Notes under the pieces: model-generated
Database searches by the model: none
What the model was told of the DNA's origin: nothing
Seen by the model: only the letters and a program-made list of their open reading frames with translations
Made by a program: the position numbers and the translations under genes
Shown here: positions 18,866 to 21,353 of the stretch, piece after piece
Layout: the number at the start of each line of letters is the position of its first letter
Position numbering within the stretch: position 1 is the first letter of the stretch
DNA from: Frondihabitans sp. 762G35
GTDB lineage: Bacteria > Actinomycetota > Actinomycetes > Actinomycetales > Microbacteriaceae
DNA: 64,000 nt
Assembly (NCBI RefSeq): GCF_002074055.1
Contig: NZ_CP014619.1
Span: 2,513,002 to 2,577,001, forward strand
Reading direction: 5' to 3'

Positions 18866-19867
18866 GTGACCGCAGAGCAGAACCCGCCGTCCGTCGTCAG
18901 GATCACCGACGTCGCCGCGCTGGCCGGCGTGTCGATCGGCACCGCCTCGAAGGCCCTGAACGACACCGGCCAGCTCCGCGACGAGACGCGGGCCCGGGTG
19001 CGGGCGGCGGCCGAGAAGCTCGGATTCGTCATGGACGCCCGGGGCCGCGCCCTCTCCTCCGGCCGGAGCTTCACCGTCGGGATGATCACCACGGACTCCT
19101 TCGGCCGCTTCAGCATCCCCGTGATGCTCGGGGCCGAGGACGTCCTGAGCGCCGGGCAGATGGCCGTCTTCCTCTGCGACACCCGCGACGACCCCGTGCG
19201 GGAGCACCACTACGTCCGGTCGCTGTCGTCGCGGCGGGTCGACGGCATCATCGTCACGGGAAGGAGCTCCGACCCACGGCCGCCGATCGACGTCGGGATC
19301 CCGGTCGTCTACGCCTTCACCCCCTCGACCGACGACTCGGACGTCTCGATGGTCCTCGACGACGCGCGCGGGGCGGAGATCCTGGCCGAGCACGTCCTGT
19401 CGCTCGGCCGACGGCGGGTCGCCTACGTCTCCGGGCCGGTGCGGCACGCGGCCGCGTCGCGCCGGGCCCTCGCCGCTGCGGCGCGCTTCGGCGGAGCCCT
19501 CGTCGCCGAGCCGCTCTACGGCGAGTGGTCGGAGCAGTGGGGGCGCCAGGCGGTCGACCTCCTCCTGCGGACGCACCCCGACCTCGACGCGATCGCCTGC
19601 GGGAGCGACCAGATCGCCCGCGGGGTCTGCGACCGCCTCCGCGAGGTCGGGCGGGCGGTGCCGACCGATGTCGCCGTGACGGGCTTCGACGACTGGGACG
19701 TCATGGCGCTCGCCAGCCGGCCGCCCCTCACCACGGTCGACCTCCGCCTCGAGGATCTGGGGCGGCTCGCCGGGCGGGCGCTTCTCGAGCTCATCGCCGG
19801 GCAGACGCCCGCGTCGGCCTCGCTCGAGCCGACGCTCGTCATCCGCGCGTCGACGATCGGCGACTGA
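18866..19867 (+). CDS. LacI-family transcriptional regulator
   Basis: A 333-residue LacI/GalR regulator. The helix-turn-helix and hinge are at the N terminus (RITDVAALAGVSIGTASKAL, then RARVRAAAEKLGFVMDARGR), followed by a periplasmic-binding-protein-like domain (FTVGMITTDSFGRFSIPVML, VDGIIVTG, DAIACGSDQIARGV, VAVTGFDDWDVM). It should repress the divergent GH127 gene until a sugar, perhaps arabinose, binds. GTG at 18866 follows AAAGGAG. The longer frame upstream lies in the promoter region. Confidence 0.9.
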   Translation: MTAEQNPPSVVRITDVAALAGVSIGTASKALNDTGQLRDETRARVRAAAEKLGFVMDARGRALSSGRSFTVGMITTDSFGRFSIPVMLGAEDVLSAGQMAVFLCDTRDDPVREHHYVRSLSSRRVDGIIVTGRSSDPRPPIDVGIPVVYAFTPSTDDSDVSMVLDDARGAEILAEHVLSLGRRRVAYVSGPVRHAAASRRALAAAARFGGALVAEPLYGEWSEQWGRQAVDLLLRTHPDLDAIACGSDQIARGVCDRLREVGRAVPTDVAVTGFDDWDVMALASRPPLTTVDLRLEDLGRLAGRALLELIAGQTPASASLEPTLVIRASTIGD

Positions 19868-20023
19868 GGCGCGGGCGGGCGCGGCCCGCGGGCGCCGCCC
19901 GCATGTGCCGCCCGCAGGTGCCGCCCGCGCGTGCCGTCCGCGGATACCGCCCACGGATACCGGCCCAGCATCACACCGCCTCCCGGCCCTTGCTCCCCCT
20001 CCTTCCCACCTTCCCTCCCCCGC

Positions 20024-20105
20024 CGGCAACTCAGGAGTTCTGTCGCCGGGCAGCGCGCGGAGGCGCTCGGCGCCGCCCGCGCGCGACAGAACGCCTGATG
20101 TGCCG
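20024..20105. repeat. Palindromic repeat D, copy 1
   Basis: An 82-nt hairpin. The 23-nt left arm beginning CGGCAACTCAGGAGTTCTG pairs with the right arm ending TGATGTGCCG with three mismatches. The loop holds its own GC-rich stem. A linker of about 70 nt (GCGGCGCGACCCACCGAGCC and on) follows and recurs after copy 2. Confidence 0.85.
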
Positions 20106-20195
20106 ACGCGGCGCGACCCACCGAGCCGACCCGGCAGGCGCGCCAGCCCGAATAGGCCGGCGGGCGCCGCCCGCACCTCCCCTCGCCTCCCCCGC

Positions 20196-20276
20196 CGGCA
20201 ACTCAGGGGTTCTGTCGCCGGGCAGGCGCGAAGGCGCTCGACGCCGCCCGCGCGCGACAGAACGCCTGATGTGCCG
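20196..20276. repeat. Palindromic repeat D, copy 2
   Basis: An 81-nt copy of the same hairpin, nearly identical to copy 1 in both arms and followed by the same linker with only a few changes. Confidence 0.85.
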
Positions 20277-20345
20277 ACGCGGCGCGACCCACCGAGCCCA
20301 CCCGGCAGGCGCGCCAGCCCGAACAGGCCGGCGGGCGCTGCCCGC

Positions 20346-20425
20346 GGGCAACTCAGGGGTTCTGTCGCCGGGCAGCGAGCGGAGGCGCTCGGCGCCGCCC
20401 GCGCGCGACAGGACGCATGACTTGC
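20346..20425. repeat. Palindromic repeat D, copy 3
   Basis: An 80-nt, more diverged copy. The left arm matches copy 2, while the right arm has changed (ACAGGACGCATGACTTGCCG). No full linker follows, so this is the end of the array. Confidence 0.8.
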
Positions 20426-20606
20426 CGACACCGGGTGAAGGTAGTCGGGTCGGGCGGGGCAGGGTGTGGGCGGGGCCTGGGGCTGGGCGGCATGGCCGAC
20501 GGGGCGACTGGCTCAGCGGGCGGGGCGGCGGCGAGTGGGGCGGGGCGGTTGGCTCAGCGGGGCGGCGGGGGCGAGTGGCGCGGGGCGGGCGGGGCCGCCG
20601 GGCGGC

Positions 20607-21353
20607 TCAGCGTGAGGCGGGCGGGGCCGCGCGCTTCCAGCGCGACCCCGACCGGCGGAGCGAGACGCGAGTGCGATCGGCGCGGAAGAAGTCGTGCGAG
20701 AACTCGAGCGGCCTGTCGCCGGCGTCGACGGTCACGCGCCAGATCTCGAAGAGCGGCGCCCCCTCGTCCACCCCGAGGATCGCCGCCTGCTCCGCCGTCG
20801 CCGCCGTCACGTCGATCGTCTCGTCGGCGTGGGCCGTCTCGAGGCGGTACTCCTCGGCCAGGAGCCGGTAGATCGACCCGGCGTGGTCGTGCCGCTCGAA
20901 TCCCGGCACGAGTCGCATCGGCAGCACCATCGTGTCGAGCGACAGCGGGATGCCCGCGGCGTCGCGCCGTCTCCGCAGGCGGAACACGCTCTCGCCGTCG
21001 GCGAGCCCCAGATTCCTCTGCTCCGACGCCGTCGCGAGCCCGAGCTCCTCGTCGAGGACGACGGTCTCCGAGACGTAGCCCTGCTGACGCAGCATGTCGG
21101 GCACGCCCGTCACCGTGTTCAGCTGCCGCTCGATCTTGCCGTCGGCCACGAAGACGCCGCCCGTGCGGCCCATGGTCCGGCGGATCTCGTCGCGCGACTC
21201 CAGCTCCTCGAGCGCTTCGCGGAGGGCCGACCTCGGCACGTCGAGCTGCTCGGCCATACCGCGCTCCGAACCGATCCGGTCGCCGACGCGCAGCTCGGAG
21301 CGGGCGATGACTCGCCGGATTCGCTCGACGAGTTCGGAGGGGTCTCGGGCCAC
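20607..21353 (-). CDS. GntR/HutC-family transcriptional regulator
   Basis: A 248-residue regulator with a winged helix at the N terminus (LVERIRRVIARSELRVGDRI, then LDVPRSALREALEELESRD) and a UTRA effector domain at the C terminus (ILGVDEGAPLFEIWRVTVDA). HutC-type members sense small molecules such as sugars or histidine derivatives. The GTG start follows GTGAGG. It stands next to the PucR regulator and the polyamine genes, but no target is evident, and membership of the polyamine system is only positional. Confidence 0.82.
   Translation of the reverse strand: MARDPSELVERIRRVIARSELRVGDRIGSERGMAEQLDVPRSALREALEELESRDEIRRTMGRTGGVFVADGKIERQLNTVTGVPDMLRQQGYVSETVVLDEELGLATASEQRNLGLADGESVFRLRRRRDAAGIPLSLDTMVLPMRLVPGFERHDHAGSIYRLLAEEYRLETAHADETIDVTAATAEQAAILGVDEGAPLFEIWRVTVDAGDRPLEFSHDFFRADRTRVSLRRSGSRWKRAAPPASR

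Follow-up and report, generated by a model that had tools for sequence, protein, structure and literature searches.

Helically phased palindromes in Frondihabitans and other Microbacteriaceae and their linkage to a putative nuclease gene family

The array between two regulator genes

Few bacterial repeats are as common as REP-like palindromes. In Frondihabitans sp. 762G35, three large palindromes stand in tandem between two genes, which raises the question of whether they are a local duplication, a structured RNA, or part of a mobile REP/BIME-like family, the last two having been suggested in a preliminary description of this DNA. The window analysed is a stretch of 64,000 nucleotides (NZ_CP014619.1, 2,513,002 to 2,577,001; G000:C1:2513002-2577001, G000 being this genome), and the coordinates of the array are given within it.

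The three tandem palindromes were confirmed, with lengths of 82, 81 and 82 bp and with starts 172 and then 150 nt apart, no strand being assigned to them or to their linkers. Copy 1 (20024-20105) has outer arms CGGCAACTCAGG (20024-20035) and CCTGATGTGCCG (20094-20105) and inner arms GTTCTGTCGC (20037-20046) and GCGACAGAAC (20083-20092). It is followed by a linker (20106-20195), copy 2 (20196-20276), a second linker (20277-20345), and copy 3 (20346-20427), the right arm of which is degenerate (CATGACTTGCCG). The array sits in a convergent gap between a gene on the + strand (18866-19867) and a gene on the - strand (20607-21353), both with their 3' ends towards it, which we take from sequence and general knowledge to encode a LacI-type and a GntR-type regulator, respectively. 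The linker is conserved, as had been described: behind copies 1 and 2 it is 96% identical over 120 nt, and the array therefore grew by recent tandem duplication. Short GC-rich tandem repeats are present on both flanks, of 13 bp GCCCGCAGGTGCC-like units at 19884-19951 and of approximately 40 bp GGCGGGGCGG-like units at 20486-20598.

All three copies fold better than shuffled sequence (z of -3.0, -5.3, and -2.9 for copies 1, 2, and 3), because of the palindrome itself. Copies 1 and 2 do differ, but not in the compensatory way that had been read as preserving the pairing: the changes are at a position that is unpaired in both (A.G versus G.G beside CAGG) and in the apical part, where the predicted pairing is unlike between the two copies.

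A dispersed family of palindromes

Further copies exist both in this genome and in its relatives, which rules out a mere local duplication. Indeed, the three palindromes are members of a family whose paired DNA sites, of 60-92 bp, are dispersed over the genomes of actinobacteria and take the form of CGGCAACTCAGG-(variable)-CCTGAGTTGCCG DNA dyads in many Microbacteriaceae. BLASTN of the whole unit, which had been proposed as a check, returned mostly noise from the GC-rich interior; the usable signature is the arms and their fixed spacing. With a TCAGG..CCTGA search and a two-arm scan, 14-15 elements were identified at 2420273-2533428 (113 kb) of the 3.41 Mb genome, nearly all of them 82 bp with outer arms CGGCAACTCAGG and CCTGAGTTGCCG, and a second group, which differs in its inner arms, at 3145541-3155879. 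The interiors of the elements in this genome are unrelated, even from neighbour to neighbour, and gave no alignment.

The pattern AACTCAGG-N44..74-CCTGAGTT is present in 52 of 299 Microbacteriaceae genomes and in 29 of 85 genera, among them Frondihabitans, Salinibacterium, Yonghaparkia, Microbacterium, and Rhodoglobus. The highest copy number, 57, is in genome G292, and in the same scan strict-pattern copies are missing in many members of the Microbacteriaceae. The reversed-pattern control was almost empty, which, with 14-15 same-length copies in 113 kb, excludes chance. Matches in Paraglaciecola and Mycobacterium from the genome scan were taken as chance. The arms are GGCAACTCAGG and variants, in which CAGG is invariant.

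Across 39 gaps in Frondihabitans and G292, the elements favour convergent gaps (odds ratio 5.7) and are depleted in divergent ones (0.14), with some copies nevertheless in divergent gaps and others inside genes. Copies are kept at orthologous sites across species, and at some orthologous sites a filled gap has a counterpart that is nearly absent (141 bp against 9 bp at one site, 222 bp against 18 bp at another).

Spacing and pairing of the arms

The lengths of the 96 exact copies listed fall at 61-64, 73-76, and 84-86 bp, with just two outside these classes (66 and 88 bp). Spacings of about 62, 74, and 85 bp are whole helical turns; the best period is 11 bp, with a resultant of 0.87 that was reached in none of 5000 random sets, and the periodicity persists when the data are collapsed to one value per genus and length. 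In a second set, with other arms (AATTCAGG), 70 of 75 copies are within the same three length classes, also with a period of 11. At orthologous gaps the element is retained and its length shifts by one turn (81 bp in G003, 80 bp in G005, 92 bp in G006), the spacing of the arms being kept at whole turns while the interior drifts. Five 66-bp copies of a repeat (AATTCAGGAATTCCTGAAGCTGGCCTC..) in G001 (C1:628800, 831516, 920787, 1609936, and 1884751) fit the arm pattern and look like a separate family.

Pairing in G292 is complete over arms of 12-13 bp and is at chance in the interior (0.32 versus 0.27 expected), while in the Frondihabitans elements it reaches approximately 20 bp. Most of the exact copies in G292 are themselves paired, as [63]-20-[63], placing four half-sites in about 146 bp. 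The helical-turn spacing and the arm-limited pairing mark a pair of inverted half-sites that are read from a single face of the DNA duplex, and not the stem of an RNA. The whole-turn spacing predicts that an addition of 5 bp kills a site and that one of 10-11 bp rescues it.

The structured RNA of the preliminary description finds no support: there is no Rfam match to the array copies up to E 1, and the spacing by helical turns, the restriction of pairing in G292 to the arms, and the presence of copies within conserved coding sequence all speak against it. Bidirectional terminators or mRNA-stabilising hairpins that are repetitive by coincidence would have stable predicted folds and would be enriched in convergent gaps, as is seen here 5.7-fold. 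This is nevertheless very unlikely, as the helical-turn spacing of the DNA is kept whatever the interior, pairing in G292 ends at 12-13 nt, copies are also found in divergent gaps and within genes, and neither function gives a reason for the matched pair of palindromes around one gene family that is described below.

A putative nuclease gene linked to the palindromes

Every Frondihabitans cluster that was read holds one gene of the same nuclease family. In this genome, nuclease A (C1:2485732-2486721) is 46 kb from the array in the window, the second gene, in cluster B (3146858), was overlooked by the gene finder and read from the translation, and a third, more distant paralogue is at C1:2129424-2130257. 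The protein, of approximately 310-350 aa, matches profiles for an N-terminal AbiEi_4-like winged helix and a C-terminal MTES_1575/DUF559 domain, the former of these names having been described as a Vsr-type REase domain (PMC3710099). These profile matches are weak to moderate and point to a putative assignment as AbiEi-like and Vsr/DUF559: the best DUF559 match has an E of 1.9e-9 and is above cut-off in the Yonghaparkia and G292 homologues, MTES_1575 matches are below cut-off in most homologues, and the protein of this genome itself matches MTES_1575 with an E of just 0.01 and AbiEi models with values down to 4e-6. The catalytic pattern D..E-x-D..H..DR..D is invariant in an alignment of eight rows and was found in 25 of 33 of the proteins by pattern search. 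The nearest PDB sequence is 3hrl (E 0.011), and a single-sequence AlphaFold2 model, with a pLDDT of 37, was unusable.

Two palindromes of its own type bracket the nuclease gene at 36 of 69 Microbacteriaceae loci and at 9 of 27 loci class-wide, compared with 4 of 460 control genes, a count that includes one gene of the nuclease itself. The loci were drawn from a profile search of 27 genomes. No arm sequence was assumed in this test, for which both sides had to carry a palindrome, the two having matching arms with four A/T within the arm; this A/T threshold was chosen after a looser version had failed, any arm composition being unspecific in GC-rich DNA (110 of 300 controls by chance), and the controls were run with the identical setting. 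Some of the class-wide loci that passed are outside the Microbacteriaceae, with arms such as AAACACAAAC or CACCACAGTG. When the known CAGG core was used instead, palindromes stood on both sides of 24 of the 69 loci and on one side or more of 40; for the 465 controls, many of which came from element-rich clusters, the counts were 5 and approximately 43. Examples with both flanks occupied are G003, cluster B of this genome, G292, G153, Yonghaparkia, G077, G144, and G246. Approximately one nuclease locus in two gave no matching palindrome pair with the criteria used. Most of these loci are distant paralogues, including the third paralogue in this genome; nuclease A has two palindromes upstream and none recognised downstream.

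The palindromes are also concentrated around these genes. Of the copies listed for eight genomes, 60-100% are no more than 100 kb from their cognate nuclease. The expectation is 5-12% for seven of these genomes and 49% for G003, where the contig is short, and permutation gave p of 0.003-0.06 per genome; for G000 and G003 the scan was more sensitive close to the clusters than away from them, making their figures upper estimates. Genome-wide pattern searches give the same concentration near nuclease genes.

Co-variation of the arms with the nuclease

Outer arms differ by 0.07 within a locus and by 0.41 between loci, and arm distance tracks nuclease distance (Mantel r 0.43, 0 of 5000 permutations). 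Shared ancestry contributes to this correlation, and paralogues within a genome are therefore the better evidence. In G292 and in G153 the paralogues of each genome bear different arms. Those in G292 are TCGCAACTCAGG and CAGAAATGCAGG, with dispersed CAGAAATGCAGG copies also in that genome, and the orthologues in the two genomes agree on CAGAAATGCAGG (loci L249 and L253). In the AACTCAGG-poor genomes G001, G002, and G004 there are AATTCAGG arms at the nuclease together with dispersed AATTCAGG palindromes.

Were the palindromes sites of chromosome architecture or insulation, a nucleoid protein would sit on the dyad and the nuclease-like gene would encode a domesticated binder in which catalysis is unimportant. 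The constancy of the helical phase, the clustering by region, the conservation of orthologous positions, the composite arrays of four half-sites in G292, and the enrichment in convergent gaps would all be in keeping with this. That paralogues of one genome differ in their arms, each set tracking its own nuclease, does not follow from it, nor do the mostly conserved catalytic residues or the many family members without strict-pattern copies, which makes architecture sites quite unlikely.

The palindromes of the array are instead probably dispersed sites that a dedicated endonuclease, nuclease A (C1:2485732-2486721), recognises, and that have spread outward from its gene. A homodimer of the nuclease would bind the two inverted half-sites from one DNA face, with the winged helix on the arms and the nuclease domain towards the middle of the site. 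It would then nick or cut, and repair would copy the palindrome into nearby sites, so that the family would grow outward from the nuclease gene in much the way that REPs spread from the gene of a RAYT. Palindromes already present would be multiplied by tandem duplication of the kind seen in the window, and elements would persist mostly in convergent gaps, where promoters are least disturbed. This mobility is what we infer from the sequences; the conservation of copies at orthologous sites would also be expected of stable host sites that are not actively spreading.

Copies inside coding sequences

The crtI gene (phytoene desaturase) carries an element within its coding sequence in five Frondihabitans species (G000 C1:3004612-3004696; G002 C1:540800-540884; G003 C2:670899-670983; G004 C2:2063758-2063842; G005 C1:449385-449469). 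In each case, the copy bears the arm type of its own genome, AACTCAGG in G000, G003, and G005 and AATTCAGG in G002 and G004. The interiors of the crtI copies and of a copy in an ABC ATPase gene encode host protein, which is conserved in crtI, and the half-sites therefore did not arrive as one insertion.

In genus g52 there are elements at corresponding places in different genomes (G193 C1:2888889, G064 C1:2002307, and G284 C44:56906; G193 C1:3502275 and G284 C20:43120; G064 C1:2512672 and G284 C26:16041), which look like conserved coding sequence. The element downstream of the nuclease gene, which is of the 92-bp class, extends into the 3' end of the ORF, where its translation reads GNSG..PELP (G003 C2:707972; G005 C1:534132; G006 C4:376534; G000 C1:3147710).

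Copies of this kind bear on whether palindrome, nuclease gene, and palindrome are simply an ordinary transposon, with the nuclease as a transposase for excision and insertion and the solo palindromes as MITEs. The matching pair around the gene, the dispersal of copies, and the filled and nearly absent gaps at orthologous sites would be expected of a transposon. This reading is unlikely, given that at least two coding copies (crtI and ABC ATPase) have an interior that encodes host protein, that interiors are unrelated even in neighbouring copies, that nuclease genes A and B hold the same neighbourhood in several Frondihabitans species, and that no target-site duplication was noticed in the sequences read.

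Comparison with known systems

In its organisation the family is REP-like, as the preliminary description suggested: the elements are intergenic, multi-copy, and in tandem clusters, and two of them bracket a dedicated nuclease gene. Membership of the REP/RAYT family is nevertheless rejected, the palindromes having elements of another size with other arms, and there being no Y1 HUH transposase (PF01797) in this genome or 25 relatives, a search in which control genomes were positive. REP/RAYT systems likewise have short, dispersed, mostly extragenic palindromes in clusters and tandem arrays, and a dedicated nuclease gene flanked by two copies whose arms co-vary with the enzyme (PMC2817692). The gammaproteobacterial enzyme is a Y1 HUH transposase, whereas here a putative winged-helix and Vsr/DUF559-type nuclease is found in actinobacterial hosts; the GTAG/GGAG head is lacking, with GGCAACTCAGG and variants as arms; and each site consists of two half-sites of 10-13 bp in dyad symmetry with quantised spacing, where a REP is a small single-strand hairpin. 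RAYT-driven REP, REPIN, or BIME elements would account for the flanking palindromes, co-evolution, and clusters, which are as described for RAYTs (PMC2817692), but are refuted at the sensitivity of the Y1_Tnp search, and with units of 60-92 bp, separated half-sites, and no GTAG head they can be given next to no weight.

Integron attC-like recombination sites, which are also imperfect palindromes of 60-90 nt in arrays with AAC/GTT near the ends, may be set aside almost entirely, as RYYYAAC/GTTRRRY boxes were unmatched by eye, no cassettes lie between the sites, the spacing is quantised, and the enzyme encoded close by is a nuclease from a different superfamily. E. coli BIME/RIB elements occur as inverted pairs at the 3' ends of transcription units. 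The elements described here are similarly placed, with a central motif in some genomes, but have no sequence relation to them. The EDxHD homing endonucleases are homologous to Vsr. Like the protein proposed here, they combine a Vsr-like nuclease with extra DNA-binding domains, and one of them, I-Bth0305I, dimerises on a target nearly 60 bp long (PMC3943268), as the present nuclease may do. They are encoded in phage introns and have a single cognate site, in contrast to a free-standing gene that is bracketed by complete palindromes and has many dispersed copies. AbiEi antitoxins bind inverted repeats cooperatively and autoregulate (PMC7319586), and the resemblance to them is limited to the N-terminal AbiEi_4-type winged helix, the C-terminal domain here being a putative nuclease.

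Some REP families have no known enzyme, and the CGTC-tagged REPs are likewise palindromic repeat families without a RAYT link (PMC3733652); they differ in sequence, size, and hosts, and no enzyme was assignable to them, whereas a candidate enzyme is linked here. In a literature search that had most subscription journals outside its scope, no earlier description of these palindromes was found, nothing pairing DUF559 or MTES_1575 with palindromes, and nothing on the arm sequence concerning bacterial repeats. We incline, if only slightly, to the broader proposal that a class of actinobacterial AbiEi-like/DUF559 genes may encode selfish or domesticated nucleases, each with its private dispersed and helically phased palindromes, as a second, independent REP-RAYT-like invention that works on double-stranded DNA through a Vsr-type nuclease dimer. 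If another class of enzyme is indeed flanked by palindromes of its own that change along with it, the arrangement would have had more than one origin. The many uncharacterised nucleases of this large actinobacterial family would then have a testable target, the nucleases with their arm types forming a natural series of DNA-recognition variants.

Variant forms of the palindrome

Many elements of the MAGs G041 and G044 have a central AAGCGCTT palindrome (G041 C8:24121, C8:229610, and C10:74664; G044 C72:69582), and the 84-bp class of genus g52 has a central CCGCG-N-CGCGG motif. Could these central motifs be a third binding site? In G107 (C1:187558-187619 and 2507365-2507448) and G265 (C8:506641) there are long perfect palindromes of CAACTCAGGAG direct repeats, with a period of 21-22 bp, which is two helical turns. 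Three tandem 60-bp elements with a CTCCAAGCCGC inner arm, about 100 bp apart, are present in G005 (C1:625777-626036), one helical turn below the main class and 92 kb from the nuclease.
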